Assembly (NCBI GenBank): GCA_026125795.1
Contig: JAHCKM010000002.1
Span: 1,116,001-1,180,000 of the forward strand
DNA: 64,000 nt
Reading direction: 5' to 3'
Source of the DNA: Burkholderiaceae bacterium
GTDB taxonomy: Bacteria; Pseudomonadota; Gammaproteobacteria; Burkholderiales; Burkholderiaceae_C
A program made the position numbers and the translations under genes. The notes under the pieces are model-generated. The model saw nothing but the letters and a program-made list of their open reading frames with translations. It searched no databases and had not been told where the DNA came from. Shown piece after piece: positions 8,982 through 45,387 of this stretch. Positions within the stretch are counted from its first letter, which is position 1. Each line of letters opens with the position of its first letter.

Positions 8982-9821
8982 CTACCGCTGCAATCGGCGG
9001 TAGGCGCTGAAGTGGCGCAGCGCGAGCTGGTTGCGGCCGAGCTGCTCGTACAGCCGCGCGGCATTGAAGTGCGCGTCGGCAAAGTCGTCGGCCAGGGCGA
9101 TGCACGCTTCGTAGGCGGCCAGTGCGTCGTTGGCACGCCCGAGGTCTTCGAGCGCGAGGGCGCGGTTGTAGTGCAGGCGCGCCTCGCGCGGCGCCTTGGC
9201 CAGGCCCTGGTCGTACACCGCGAGCGCGCCGTCGAGGCGGCCCGCCTCGTACAGCAGCGCGCCGAGGTTCAGATAGGCATCGATGCGATCGGGCGCGTGG
9301 CGGATCACCTGGCGATAGGCCGCCTCGGCTGCGGCCGGGTCGCTCTGTTCCAGCGCCTCTGCATGGGCCAGTTCGGCCTCGGGTTCCGCAGGGGCGGCAG
9401 CAGGCGCAGTGGGCCGCGTGATGAAGGTGACCGCGCCCGCGCTGCCGCTGGGCGCCACCTCAAAGTCCATCAGCAGCTGCTGCGACTCGGCATCCCATTG
9501 CAGATCGCCCTGGCGCACGGCGACGTCGGGGCCGACGGCCGAGATGCGCAGGCCGGTCAGCGGCACTTCGCTCGGCAACTGGCGGCGCAGCTGCACCAGC
9601 GCCTTCACCACCTTGCGTGGCGGGATCTTGTTGGCCAGCAGCTGGTCCGCGGTGCGCAGCAGCACCACGTCCTGGAACGAGAAGCGGTATTCATTGCGCG
9701 GCCCGCGCGCCGGCGTGACGAAGCCGGCGTCGATGAGCCGCGTGAGCGTGCTGGCCGACAGGCCCAGCATCTCGCGCACGCTTTTCAAGGAATAGGTGTG
9801 CGGCGTCGCGCTCGCGATCAC
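8982..9821 (-). CDS. MerR-type HTH fused to TPR repeats, coupled to ku
   Basis: 279 residues from a GTG that overlaps the ku stop (GTGA), a sign of translational coupling. Residues about 8-80 form a MerR-like winged helix (YSLKSVREMLGLSASTLTRLIDAG, then a wing RGPRNEYRFSFQDVVLLRTAD). About 85-135 is a beta-rich linker. An acidic Ala/Pro hinge follows, then three or more TPR-like repeats at about 148-279 (AEAAYRQVIRHAPDRIDAYLNLGALLYEAG and similar). TPRs usually bind proteins and MerR domains bind DNA, so it could link DNA to a partner or regulate the repair genes. That role is inference from position. No catalytic residues seen. Confidence 0.8.
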   Translation of the reverse strand: MIASATPHTYSLKSVREMLGLSASTLTRLIDAGFVTPARGPRNEYRFSFQDVVLLRTADQLLANKIPPRKVVKALVQLRRQLPSEVPLTGLRISAVGPDVAVRQGDLQWDAESQQLLMDFEVAPSGSAGAVTFITRPTAPAAAPAEPEAELAHAEALEQSDPAAAEAAYRQVIRHAPDRIDAYLNLGALLYEAGRLDGALAVYDQGLAKAPREARLHYNRALALEDLGRANDALAAYEACIALADDFADAHFNAARLYEQLGRNQLALRHFSAYRRLQR

Positions 9822-10741
9822 TTCTTGGATGCTCGTGCGCGTGCCGGCGCGGGCGCCGCCGCCGGCGCACGCCGCACTCCTTTGCGTTCCTTCAAGGCGC
9901 CGGCGGGAATGGTCTCAGGCTCGGGGGCCCGGGCGGCCTTGCCGTTGGCGCTGGCCGCGGCGCCGCCTTTTTTGCCCAGGCTGGCGCGCAGCGCTTCCAT
10001 CAGGTCGATCACCTGGCCGCTGGCCGGCGACTCCACCTCTTCGTGCGCCACGATCTGCTGGCCGGCGATCTTGCGGTCGATCGCCTCGAGCACGCGCACC
10101 TTCTCTTCGTCTTTGTAAGCGCTGGGGTCGTAGCCGTCTTCGGCGATCTGGTCGATCAGCTGCATCGCGAGATCGAGCTCGGCCTGCGTGACGTCGACCT
10201 TCTCGATGTTCAGGTCCTTGAGCGAGCGCACCTCGTCGGCGAAGAACAGCTGCTGCAGCATCAGGCCGTCTTCGGCCGGGCGCACCTGCACCACGTAGCG
10301 CTTGGTCTTCCACGACCAGCGTGCCAGCGCGCAGCGGCCGCTCTTGCGCATGGCCTCGGCCAGCAGCGCGTACGGCTTGCCGCCGCGCTTGTCGGGCGCC
10401 AGCATGTAGGCCTTGTCGTAGTAGATCGGGTCGATCGACTTCTCGGGCACGAAGGCCACGATGTCCACCACGTGGCTCGAGCCTTCTTCGAGCGCCTTGA
10501 GCTCCGACGGCTCGAACAGCACGAACTTGTCTTTCTCGAACTCGTAGCCTTTCACCATCTCGGCGCGCTCGACGACCTTGCCGTCCTTCTCCGAGATGTA
10601 CTGCTGGCGCACGCGCGAGCCGTCCTTGGTGAGCAGGTTGAAGCGCACGTTGGCCGAACTCTCGGTGGCGGAAAAGAGCTTGACCGGGATCGACACCAAG
10701 CCGAAGCCCAGGGTCAATGACGCGATCGAACGGGCTGCCAT
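9818..10741 (-). CDS. ku: Ku protein, non-homologous end joining
   Basis: 307 residues. Bacterial Ku is a homodimeric ring that binds double-strand DNA ends and recruits LigD. The core is intact: MAARSIASLTLGFGLVSIPVKL at the N-terminus, RVRQQYISEKDGKVVERAEMVKGYE in the middle, and DGLMLQQLFFADEVR plus the C-terminal helices. The last 40 residues are a Lys/Arg/Pro/Ala-rich tail (KERKGVRRAPAAAPAPARARASKK), the basic extension known to modulate DNA binding in bacterial Ku. The ATG at 10741 is the conserved family start. ligD lies upstream in the same direction, with a 242-bp spacer that carries repeats. Confidence 0.97.
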   Translation of the reverse strand: MAARSIASLTLGFGLVSIPVKLFSATESSANVRFNLLTKDGSRVRQQYISEKDGKVVERAEMVKGYEFEKDKFVLFEPSELKALEEGSSHVVDIVAFVPEKSIDPIYYDKAYMLAPDKRGGKPYALLAEAMRKSGRCALARWSWKTKRYVVQVRPAEDGLMLQQLFFADEVRSLKDLNIEKVDVTQAELDLAMQLIDQIAEDGYDPSAYKDEEKVRVLEAIDRKIAGQQIVAHEEVESPASGQVIDLMEALRASLGKKGGAAASANGKAARAPEPETIPAGALKERKGVRRAPAAAPAPARARASKK

Positions 10742-10826
10742 GTCAGTGCCGCCCGGCCGCCCGAAGGCACTGACGGCCTTGCAGGCCGCGCCGGTCCTCA
10801 CGGACCAGCCGTTCGCCACGCGCGGC

Positions 10827-10926
10827 CAGTCCACTGGACTGACCGCGTCCGGGCTCACCCCCCTCGGGGGGCAGCGAACGAAGTGAGCGTGGGGGCTGTT
10901 TCATACTGGGGTCTCCACCCGGGTGG
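10827..10926. repeat. Extragenic palindromic repeat element between ligD and ku
   Basis: The ku leader contains a 15-bp odd palindrome at 10827-10841 (CAGTCCA, C, TGGACTG). A copy of a dispersed element follows at about 10857-10897 (CCCTCGGGGGGCAGCGAACG continuing to GAGCGTGGGGGC). A 12-bp perfect palindrome, CCACCCGGGTGG, is at 10915-10926. The same element occurs at 43793-43871 and 44882-44960. The palindrome nearest ligD could help end the ligD message; the rest separates ku from ligD. Confidence 0.7.
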
Positions 10927-42147: not shown

Positions 42148-42267
42148 AGCGAACCGCCGGATACACATCGGCGCGCCGACTTCAACCCCGCTGCCGGCGT
42201 TGCGCCGTTCAACGCAACGGACGGCTCGCCGCGGGGGGCGCGCCGCATGGCAACCGGGAGACCTCTG

Positions 42268-44373
42268 ATGCTGATCCATCGCCGCCAACTGCTGGCCCGC
42301 GGCGCACTGTTTGCGGCGGCCGCGCCCTATGCGCTGCACGCCGGCGCCTTCGTCGACAGCGCTGCACGCACGCTCACCGCCTATACCAGCGAAGCCGAGC
42401 TGCGGCAGGCCCTCGTCCGCTGGCACGAGCAGTCGCGCCAGCATCGATCGGAGCGCCGGCGCGACGCGGCGGCCGCGGACACGCTGGCGATGCAGGCGGC
42501 GCCGGCCACCGCACCGGCGCCGATGGCGGCCAAGAGCGAGGCGGCCGGCGCGGTGGCTCGCGCGGCCGAGGCCGAATCGATCACCAACGTGCAGACCGCC
42601 GGCGTCGACGAAGGCGGCATTGTCAAGCGCGCGGGCGACTTTCTGATCATCCTGAGGCGCGGGCGCTTGTTCACCGTGCGCGTCGGCGGCGATGCGCTGG
42701 CGCCGGTGGCGGCAGTGGATGCGTATGCGCCAGGCTCCAATCCGGGCGGCGCCTGGTACGACGAGCTGCTGGTGTCCAACCGCGACGTGGTGGTGATCGG
42801 CTACTCGTACGCGCGCGGCGGCACCGAGATCGGCTTGTTCGAGCTCGGCAACGACGGCTCGTTGGCCTACCGTGCCACGCATCACCTGCGCTCGTTTGAC
42901 TACTACAGCTCGCGCAACTATGCGAGCCGGCTGATCGGCCGCAAGCTGGTGTTCTACACGCCGACGCTGCTGTCCCCATGGCATGCGCAGCCGTGGGAGC
43001 TGTTTCCGGCGCTGCGGCGCTGGCATGGCCAGAGCGATGCGCAGGGCTTCAAGCGCATCCTGCCGGCCACGCGCGTGTACCGCACCGACGACGAGTTCGA
43101 GCCCGGCGAGGCGCTGGCGCTGCACACCATCACCTCGTGCGAACTGGGCGGCGACGAGCTCAAGGTCGAGTCCACCGCGGTGCTCGGCCCGGCGGGTCGC
43201 GTGTTCTACGTGTCGCAAGGCTCCGTCTATGTGTGGGCCAGCAGCTGGCGGCGTCGGTGGCAGTCGCCGACACCGCGCCCGCAGCCAACCGAGCCGCGAT
43301 CGCTGTCCGCGGTGTTCCGCATCCCGCTCGATGGCACGGCGCCGAGCGCGATCAAGACCGCCGGCGTGCCGATCGACCAGATGTCGTTCCTCGAAGACGG
43401 CGGGCATCTGAACGTGCTGCTGCGCGAATCGGGCCGCGGCGAAGGGATGTGGGGCAGCGAACACACCGGTGGTTCGATGGCGCTGCTGCGCGTGCCGCTG
43501 AGCGCATTCGGCGACGGACGCGGCTCGGCGCAGCCCGAGCACTACCGGCGCCTGCCCGCGCCGCCAGGGCATGCGGTGCAGAACCGCTTCGTCGGCGACT
43601 GGCTGCTGTACGGTGGTGCACACCACGGTCGCGGGTTCGATGCCGGGCCGTCGGCGTATGCGTTGCGTTTTGCATCCGGCGGCGATGCGATGGCGCTGGC
43701 GCCGGGCCATGCGGTGGAACGCATCGAGGCGCTCGGCCGCGACGCGCTGCTGGTGGGCTCGCGCGACGGCGACCTGGTGTTCAGCGCGGTGCGCCTCGGT
43801 CGGCGCTGGGCCGCTCCCGAGCCGACCGAAGCCTCCTCGGGGGGCAGCGACCAAGGGGAGCGTGGGGGTCGCAGTACGCGTCGTGACCCGCAGCTGGCCG
43901 GACGCCACGTGCAACGCGGCGTGGCACAAGGCGAGACGCGCACGCACGGCTTCTTCTACCGCCCCCACGACGACGACGGCGGCTTGCTCGGCCTGCCCGT
44001 GCTGGGCCCGGGGGTGCGTGGCCGGCACGGGGTGTATGCCGGTGGCAGCGGCGCCGCATCGGTGCTGTTCCTGCGCAACCGCGGCCTGCAGTTCACCGGG
44101 CTCGGCCAGCTGCGTGCCGGCGATGGCGGCGCACGCGATGATGCGTGCAAGGCGAGCTGCGTCGACTGGTACGGCAACGCGCGTCCGATCTTCCTCGGCG
44201 AGCGCGTGCTCGCGCTGATGGGCTACGAGATCGTCGAAGGCCGCGTGCAGCCCGCCGGCTGGCGCTTCGACGAGCCGAACGCAGCGCCGGCGGAGCAGAT
44301 CGTCGAGCGGCGGCGCATCAGCTTTGCACCCAACGCCGCGTGGAAGGAGGGGCGTTATTCACCATTTAACTGA
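42268..44373 (+). CDS. Secreted beta-propeller-domain protein containing an in-frame repeat element
   Basis: 701 residues. Twin-arginine-like N-terminus HRRQLLARGALFAAAAPYALHAG suggests Tat export. Residues about 95-690 match the beta-propeller-domain (COG4880-like) proteins: TNVQTAGVDEGGIVKRAGDFLIILRRGRLFTVRV, VVVIGYSYARGGTEIGLFELG, VFRIPLDGTAPSAIKTAGVPIDQMSFLEDGGHLNVLLRE. Between residues about 510 and 536 the chain is encoded by a dispersed palindromic element (RWAAPEPTEASSGGSDQGERGG). It would sit in a surface loop. The start ATG at 42268 follows GGGAG; function of the family is unknown. Its 3' end overlaps the convergent thioesterase gene by 8 bp. Confidence 0.88.
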   Translation: MLIHRRQLLARGALFAAAAPYALHAGAFVDSAARTLTAYTSEAELRQALVRWHEQSRQHRSERRRDAAAADTLAMQAAPATAPAPMAAKSEAAGAVARAAEAESITNVQTAGVDEGGIVKRAGDFLIILRRGRLFTVRVGGDALAPVAAVDAYAPGSNPGGAWYDELLVSNRDVVVIGYSYARGGTEIGLFELGNDGSLAYRATHHLRSFDYYSSRNYASRLIGRKLVFYTPTLLSPWHAQPWELFPALRRWHGQSDAQGFKRILPATRVYRTDDEFEPGEALALHTITSCELGGDELKVESTAVLGPAGRVFYVSQGSVYVWASSWRRRWQSPTPRPQPTEPRSLSAVFRIPLDGTAPSAIKTAGVPIDQMSFLEDGGHLNVLLRESGRGEGMWGSEHTGGSMALLRVPLSAFGDGRGSAQPEHYRRLPAPPGHAVQNRFVGDWLLYGGAHHGRGFDAGPSAYALRFASGGDAMALAPGHAVERIEALGRDALLVGSRDGDLVFSAVRLGRRWAAPEPTEASSGGSDQGERGGRSTRRDPQLAGRHVQRGVAQGETRTHGFFYRPHDDDGGLLGLPVLGPGVRGRHGVYAGGSGAASVLFLRNRGLQFTGLGQLRAGDGGARDDACKASCVDWYGNARPIFLGERVLALMGYEIVEGRVQPAGWRFDEPNAAPAEQIVERRRISFAPNAAWKEGRYSPFN
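43793..43871. repeat. Dispersed palindromic element inside a coding sequence
   Basis: About 79 bp, reverse complement of the element at 44882-44960, with the shared cores GTCGCTGCCCCCCGAGG and GGGAGCGGCCCAGCGCCGAC. It is read through in-frame by the beta-propeller gene. The copies differ at scattered positions, so the insertion is not recent. Confidence 0.8.
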
Positions 44374-44854
44374 CGATGTAGGCCGCGGCGGCGGTGGAGA
44401 TGAGCGTGCCCTCGTCGTTGAGCAGACGCATCTGCGTCGTGCCCACGCGGCCGCCCAGCCGCATCACCTCGCCTTGTGCGACGAAGTGCTTGCCCAGACC
44501 GGGGCGCAGGTAATCGACGCGCAGGTCGATGGTGCCGAGCTTGGCAAAGCGGTGCATCACCTGCAGGGCAGCCTCGTCGGCGTGTTTCTCGGCGATGGCC
44601 CACATCACCGCCAGTCCGCCCATCGCGTCGAGCGTGGCCGAGATCACGCCGCCATGCAGCCGGCCGTACAGGTGGTGGCCCACCAGCTCGGGGCGCATCT
44701 CGAAGCGCAGCGTCGGTCCGTTGGCGCCGTGGCCGGTGAACTTCAGGCCCAGCACCTGGTTGAACGAGATCTGCTGCTCGAACAGCGTGGCCATTGCCGC
44801 CTCGAGGCGGGCCTGCTCGGCCGCGCTGCGGCGCATTGAAGTGGATTGCGTCAT
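44366..44854 (-). CDS. Acyl-CoA thioesterase, hotdog fold (YigI/PaaI-like)
   Basis: 162 residues. The hotdog thioesterase signature is HHLYGRLHGGVISATLDAMGGLAVMWA, with the catalytic region GRLHGGVIS (acid/His at the helix start), followed by MHRFAKLGTIDLRVDYLRPGLGKHFVAQGEV. The N-terminal helix and VEE-less pattern match YigI-type proteins that hydrolyse medium- to long-chain acyl-CoA. The ATG at 44854 precedes MTQSTSMRRSAAEQ; an upstream TTG is less likely. Convergent with the beta-propeller gene. Confidence 0.85.
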   Translation of the reverse strand: MTQSTSMRRSAAEQARLEAAMATLFEQQISFNQVLGLKFTGHGANGPTLRFEMRPELVGHHLYGRLHGGVISATLDAMGGLAVMWAIAEKHADEAALQVMHRFAKLGTIDLRVDYLRPGLGKHFVAQGEVMRLGGRVGTTQMRLLNDEGTLISTAAAAYIVS

Positions 44855-44881
44855 CGCCGCCAAGCATAGCGGCGGACCTCA

Positions 44882-44960
44882 GGCCCCCACGCTCACGCGT
44901 TCGCTGCCCCCCGAGGGGCCCGGTCGGCTTGGGAGCGGCCCGGCGCCGACCGGGGCGCTG
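44882..44960. repeat. Dispersed palindromic element, intergenic copy
   Basis: Between the thioesterase gene and a small secreted-protein gene. Contains CCCCCACGCTCACGCGTTCG, TGCCCCCCGAGGGG and GGCTTGGGAGCGGCCCGGCG, followed by GCCGACCGGGGCGC. It is the closest match to the copy inside the beta-propeller gene and shares its core with 10857-10897 and 18364-18452. Confidence 0.8.
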
Positions 44961-44961
44961 G

Positions 44962-45387
44962 TTATCGCTTTGAGCGCAGGCCGCTCGACGGCACGCCCGG
45001 TGCCGGCAGCCGGCTCACCAGGTTGCCGGTCCACGATCGGCCGCTCGCGCCGTCGTGCGACGCGATACGAAACACCATCGACGACAGGCTGCCTTCGCAG
45101 TGGATCGAGCCGCTCACCGGCGTGAGCGTGATCGTGCCCTGGCCCAAGCCGCGTGCGCGCATCCAACGGTAGGCATCGGACAGGCCGCGCTCGCGCAGTG
45201 CGTTCATCAGCTCCTTCGGGTCCTGGCTGCCGGGCAGATCGTCGAGCGAGCGGCAACTGGTGAAGCCGAAATGTTCGTTGTCGACCCACACCACACCGGA
45301 TTCGGCGGACGCTGCCTGTGTGACGGCCATCGCCAGCAGCGCGAGCGCTGCCCGGCGGCAAGTCTGCGTCGGTCGCTTGCGTTCCAT
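44962..45387 (-). CDS. Secreted hypothetical protein
   Basis: 141 residues. Signal peptide MERKRPTQTCRRAALALLAMAVTQAASA, then a compact domain with two cysteines (FTSCRSLDDLPG and SIHCEGSLSSMVFRI), probably a disulfide-bonded periplasmic protein. The sequence LMNALRERGLSDAYRWMRARGLGQGTITLTP has no family I recognise. A repeat element ends 2 bp after its stop codon. Coding is supported by the signal peptide and codon bias. Confidence 0.65.
   Translation of the reverse strand: MERKRPTQTCRRAALALLAMAVTQAASAESGVVWVDNEHFGFTSCRSLDDLPGSQDPKELMNALRERGLSDAYRWMRARGLGQGTITLTPVSGSIHCEGSLSSMVFRIASHDGASGRSWTGNLVSRLPAPGVPSSGLRSKR

Follow-up and report, generated by a model that had tools for sequence, protein, structure and literature searches.

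A dispersed hairpin element of Burkholderiales within the reading frame of a beta-propeller gene

The propeller gene and its insert

The locus lies in a window of 64,000 nucleotides (the whole stretch of DNA that was analysed) from a Burkholderiaceae genome, and its features are collected in Table 1. A first-pass annotation had described a palindromic repeat read in frame inside a beta-propeller gene. The Pfam match supports this identity for the 708-residue product, and the open reading frame is uninterrupted throughout, including across the repeat; according to a home-made gene finder, 42268 may be an alternative start codon.

Table 1. Coordinates of the element copies and neighbouring features in the window
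Feature	Position	Strand	Basis
Host gene, beta-propeller protein (708 aa)	42247..44373	+	ORF list; Pfam Beta_propel PF09826, E 3.9e-12
Genic copy of the element, full length (model positions 1-76)	43794..43868	-	cmsearch, 53.4 bits, E 1.6e-8
26 in-frame codons (residues 521-546)	43807..43884	+	MAFFT alignments of 38 and of 82 orthologues
Intergenic copy of the element	44884..44953	+	cmsearch, 46.4 bits
Neighbour of intergenic copy, thioesterase-superfamily gene	44366-44863	-	Pfam 4HBT
Neighbour of intergenic copy, ORF	44962-45387	-	
Long form of the element	10739..10895	-	cmsearch, two pieces (10838-10895 and 10739-10785), 43.1 and 41.6 bits

About 79 bp of the gene had been reported as an inverted match to an intergenic element some 1 kb distant, and 66 of 77 aligned positions are indeed identical. 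The local alignment of the two copies scores 92, whereas 2000 dinucleotide shuffles reach at most 35 and the rest of the window (three known copies excluded) at most 36. The inverted arms 43791-43828/44921-44958 (38 nt) are 92% complementary and the arms 43835-43850/44901-44916 (16 nt) 100%. The genic copy, recognised by a covariance model trained on 17 other copies, is antisense to its host gene, with the CCCCCACGC end at 43868 and the end with the variable-arm hairpin at 43794; its G+C content is 79%. The interval first proposed, 43793-43871, was right to within about 14 bp, the inserted codons being shifted slightly downstream relative to it (Table 1). The long form is flanked by two minus-strand genes, and an ATG forms its last three bases. 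That ATG sits within ORF 9818-10858 (minus strand), which as listed reaches upstream, in frame, through part of the long form and which is probably a Ku-type gene.

Orthologues of the host protein do without the insert. Residues 521-546 are absent as a block from all 38 members of a hand-picked alignment (36 of the 80 propeller loci plus two from relatives' genomes), one of which, L157, has five scattered residues in this region. When all 80 loci and the same two additions from relatives' genomes were aligned, the interval between residues 516 and 552 measured 8-13 residues in 82 of 82 orthologues (8 in 56, 9 in 24, 10 in one, and 13 in one) versus 35 here. The same peptide encoded by unrelated DNA was not seen in orthologues of distant genera. 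Four genomes of the same genus are represented among the aligned sequences: L074 belongs to G002 and L075 to G003, and L083 and L084 were taken as the G001 and G004 orthologues on the basis of identical scores. In the fifth, G005, the propeller site is empty (read by eye). The G005 orthologue (L076/L079/L082) is split over two frames, with no element at the propeller site. The propeller gene was found in all five other same-genus genomes and in 0 of 54 other relatives searched, and relatives of it were found in many more distant bacteria. A search of 36 orthologue loci with the covariance model at default filters gave two matches, both in L085. These are two adjacent element copies (L085, 335-491) upstream of the propeller-aligned part, and a stop-free frame runs through both.

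The inserted peptide, WAAPEPTEASSGGSDQGERGGRSTRR, fits the earlier description as Gly/Ser/Glu-rich and is additionally rich in Arg. It had been expected to form a surface loop. In an AlphaFold2 model (56 sequences, mean pLDDT 79.5) residues 517-548 are predicted as coil between strands 509-516 and 549-556, with ten-residue pLDDT means over 521-550 of 56, 50, and 73 and flanking blocks at 90-92; the loop presumably lies at the protein surface. A Foldseek search against the PDB, with multi-propeller DDB1 entries as top matches, adds little because the query-length TM-score is at most 0.25 among the best 50 matches.

The element family and its position between genes

The 6.57 Mb genome holds 53 exact copies of the core word CGCTGCCCCCCGAGG and 89 when one mismatch is allowed (51 forward, 38 reverse), as compared with a single occurrence of the reversed control. 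The element to which the core word belongs is a dispersed unit of about 76 bp with three hairpins. A covariance-model search of the genome, in which the 150 best candidates were scored, gave at least 144 matches at E up to 0.01, and the total is at least 145 because the propeller copy, which scores 53.4 bits in the window, is missing from the genome list. Neighbouring matches less than 60 bases apart form nine pairs; at least three of these resemble halves of one long copy, and the others tandem copies.

In all, 61 copies were aligned (atypical loci dropped by hand), 42 of which were used for folding. Two subtypes were also aligned apart, with 17 copies of one and 13 of the second. A structure of three hairpins and 22 pairs, drawn on the 17 copies, has 97.3% of cells paired, a figure biased towards the structure because it was drawn from the same sequences. 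Both-sided changes are found in 6 pairs (21 cells). None of 500 shuffles reached the pairing fraction or either of these two counts, further pair types were equalled in 8 of 500, and sliding the partners lowers pairing to 33-56%. RNAalifold found only 10 pairs on the 42 copies, 5 with both-sided changes, because that alignment mixes subtypes. The 3' hairpin has a 9-bp outer stem enclosing 15 nt; CGTC stands at its base in only 31 of 127 copies, and GTC lies inside the stem (in the a-type structure). The folding energy of the element strand, which is not the mRNA strand, is -36.1 kcal/mol. Stop codons are absent from 82, 116, and 96 of 127 copies (66-84 bases long) in the three sense frames and from 98, 84, and 59 in the antisense ones; by a rough estimate, GC content alone would yield similar openness.

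Under stricter filters the element is matched in 30 of 60 genomes, namely in this one, in 28 of the 35 further members of its family, and in one of 24 from other families of the order. An E-value cut-off of 1e-5 leaves 14 of 72,556 plasmid records with a match: five from Burkholderia, four from Paraburkholderia, three from Variovorax, and one each from Azoarcus and Rhodoferax. An Rfam scan of 10 element loci gave no family match, the sole match at E up to 1 being a tRNA. A literature search, in which preprints were absent and subscription papers few, found no published description of the family.

The element had been called one that normally lies between genes, and 136 of the 145 matches listed are not inside a gene predicted by the home-made finder, which was re-seeded by codon-position GC. 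Twelve of the 136 are overlapped by more than 10 bp by a predicted gene (9 downstream, 3 upstream). Relative to the element, both neighbours are co-directional in 89 cases, divergent in 22, both opposite in 18, and convergent in 7. Copies at five loci (L039, L038, L018, L064, and L046) stand directly before genes that are presumably guaA-, nuoN-, dnaE-, polA-, and glpK-like, respectively. A co-directional gene follows the element at 111 matches. Its predicted start codon coincides with the last three bases of the element in 42 of them, and its predicted start falls within -3 to +1 of the element end in 60.

This coincidence was compared with the annotation of four plasmid records, one of which has no annotation at the site. 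On two Variovorax plasmids the annotation agrees, the last three bases of the element match opening a CDS (zwf, downstream of gnd, in one and an ABC permease in the other), and on a Paraburkholderia largidicola plasmid the CDS of succinate dehydrogenase assembly factor 2 starts 8 bases before the match and spans it. As annotated, roughly the first 29 codons of this CDS (L430, 1193-1549) are the element. Two gene junctions that carry the element here have short spacers of 0 to about 25 bases, judged by eye, in G001, G002, G003, and G005, that is, in four of the five same-genus genomes, G004 having no flanking match.

A conserved leader ORF was considered and rejected. An ATG is found at most 24 nt 5' of 89 of the 111 co-directional copies, as compared with 12 of 25 reverse copies, 0 of 6 genic copies, and 25.7% of random windows, yet the signal is weak because the element is open in several frames. 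Of the 89 frames so begun, 57 have their stop codon between -12 and +15 relative to the next start; the stop comes earlier in 20 and later in 5, and 7 are fused to the gene. Shine-Dalgarno-like words are not enriched before either ATG (16/89 and 20/89 versus 130/484 predicted starts).

A second subtype, for example at G000:C1:1256017-1256087, is reversed relative to both flanking genes. By eye, it occupies the space from the stop codon to a G-rich run that lies four bases ahead of the next ATG, and it may bring a ribosome-binding site.

Copies within other genes

Nine of the 145 matches listed fall within a predicted gene; three of these were discounted, since in each the gene model had extended upstream through a long copy and the match is that copy's second half. 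The remaining six, all antisense, lie on four contigs. Their hosts are the propeller gene, a NAD diphosphatase of the NudC type and HutH (both above the NCBIfam cut-off), an ABC ATPase, a protein without a Pfam match, and a large subunit with salicylate 5-hydroxylase as its closest relative of solved structure. Four inserts map between adjacent or near-adjacent residues of solved homologues: 318 and 319 of 7c8z, 322 and 321 of 1gkm, 138 and 141 of 5iw4, and 201 and 206 of 8wm7 (second half a weak match, 20.6 bits). Comparison with these homologous sequences shows insertion as clean blocks. The six copies yield different peptides, and at least two frames of the element are used. That all of them are in frame is partly by construction, because the gene finder calls a copy genic only if the frame is open; frame-breaking copies would therefore be counted as intergenic.

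In the sister genome G005, seven copies are genic among the 30 examined of 37 listed. Three of the seven were compared with solved chains: one lies in an RND transporter at a point where the MdtB chain runs on without a break, and for two the homologues are less clear-cut. No genic copy was found among the 30 examined of 50 listed in G035, which represents another genus. The antisense share of genic copies is 6/6 here and 5/7 in G005 (the other two being sense), both small numbers.

This genome and G005 have the HutH insert in common, with identical site and frame; it is missing from HutH in the 12 other genomes where that protein was matched. Relative to 1gkm the protein here gains about 51 residues, more than a 70-nt element match would encode. 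Read by eye, the two species differ on both arms of one stem pair, with Ala here and Pro in G005 at one position and the converse at another. Structure-guided correction or selection on the hairpin would be expected to leave such a pattern, of which this is a single, descriptive case.

Origin and relation to known repeats

We consider it very probable that the stretch is a dispersed non-autonomous hairpin element of Burkholderiales, inserted antisense, and that the genic copies that survive are tolerated loops. The element would have entered the propeller gene in this lineage at a turn between two beta-strands. A net gain of 78 bp amounts to 26 codons, so the frame would stay open and the protein would gain a flexible loop. 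The insert would simply be translated by the ribosome, with a probably near-neutral effect of the peptide on the host protein. Genic survivors would generally be those copies that add a multiple of three, are open in the frame hit, and land where a loop can grow.

Movement would presumably depend on trans-acting machinery. No transposase for the element was identified. Mobilisation as a REP by a RAYT was considered and set aside: Y1_Tnp (PF01797) has 0 matches in this genome, the control being positive in 5 of 14 genomes including E. coli. This is not decisive, since according to the accessible part of a paper on REPs such genes may be lost (PMC3733652). No convincing target-site duplication was seen by eye at the propeller gene or the two gene junctions, where boundaries are ambiguous. 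Because neither a transposase nor a target-site duplication was identified, we infer mobility from the copies and the empty sites.

A different emphasis would make the element a stop/start-junction module of Burkholderiales that fills co-directional gaps, often supplies the next start codon, and seeds enzyme loops of about 25 residues, its arms continuing to coevolve within coding sequence. As the element is open in several frames, ribosomes could run through it and enzyme loops would be seeded repeatedly. We regard this as a tentative proposal, possible but doubtful.

It is considerably less probable that the loop has been exapted, that is, that it serves the host protein and that selection keeps the frame for this reason. 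The HutH insert, retained in frame in two species and still in frame in its longer version here, could be read in this way. However, an enzyme that has to function would keep its frame in any case; different genes carry different peptides, taken from different frames of the element, and the 82 propeller orthologues manage without the insert. Even less credit is due to the idea that the insert is missing from the mature protein, because the hairpin is either skipped by the ribosome or cut out of the RNA. The stable fold calculated for the element strand, and the fact that frame-breaking genic copies would have escaped the gene finder, speak for it, but the genic copies detected keep an open frame and lengthen it by whole codons, which would be needless for skipping or removal, even though this count is partly by construction. 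Chance likeness of GC-rich and hence stop-poor sequence, or an assembly error, is negligibly probable in view of the alignment score against shuffles, the distribution of the six genic copies over four contigs, and the insert held in common with another genome.

The preferred reading, a tolerated insertion, places the element beside several known kinds of repeat. REPs are palindromic, mostly intergenic, and unidirectional, and intragenic REPs of the GTAG and CGTC families have been described in several free-living species, in some cases entirely inside ORFs of known proteins (PMC3733652). More than half of these intragenic inserts code for 20-30 residues; the authors propose neutrality in linkers or loops and leave their importance for the protein open (PMC3733652). 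The CGTC families are described, in the accessible part of that paper, as having no dedicated transposase, and none was identified for the element. REP units measure 20-40 bp, however, versus about 76 bp and three hairpins in the element. The CGTC hairpin has a stem of 8-9 bp and a loop of 4-5 nt (Table 1 of PMC3733652), and its tag is unpaired, whereas the GTC of the element lies within the stem and the full CGTC is confined to a minority of copies. The ends of GTAG REPs often give a flanking stop codon, much as the end of the element is often a start codon. Six Burkholderiales names have 0 occurrences in the accessible text of the same paper.

Rickettsia palindromic elements (RPEs) are dispersed palindromes found in frame in unrelated genes (PMC10969869). 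In-frame insertion in conserved genes is shared with the element (the propeller gene and five more). As far as the accessible part of that paper goes, RPEs are about 150 bp long and comprise ten families, each with a conserved peptide, whereas the peptides of the shorter element are not conserved; their hosts belong to another bacterial class, and the element is set apart from RPEs by description. In-frame fusions by intragenic MITEs are not unusual either, with examples from ERIC, BOX, QMITE1, and Anabaena (PMC10969869). ERIC, BOX, and other MITE-like repeats are, like the element, non-autonomous palindromic intergenic repeats with some intragenic copies; reading of flanks and empty sites by eye demonstrated neither terminal inverted repeats nor target-site duplications for the element. 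Motif pairs in Polaromonas naphthalenivorans and Acidovorax ebreus, which belong to related genera, are likewise dispersed, mostly intergenic, near genes, and sometimes genic, but are, in the accessible description, other sequences than the element (PMC5217627). Because it differs from the GTAG and CGTC families in size and tag, and its peptides are not conserved, the element is best regarded as another family doing a known thing.

In-frame genic palindromes are thus already known from Rickettsia and from free-living bacteria, to judge from the accessible parts of both papers (PMC3733652; PMC10969869). The repeat family itself, with the start codon of the next gene at its end, appears to be undescribed. 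Its genic copies recur in enzymes with solved homologues, and one insert is in frame in two species; together with the insert-free orthologues, this allows a direct measurement of what an insert costs its host or does for it. The coincidence of the element with start codons is a separate lead on translation in operons.
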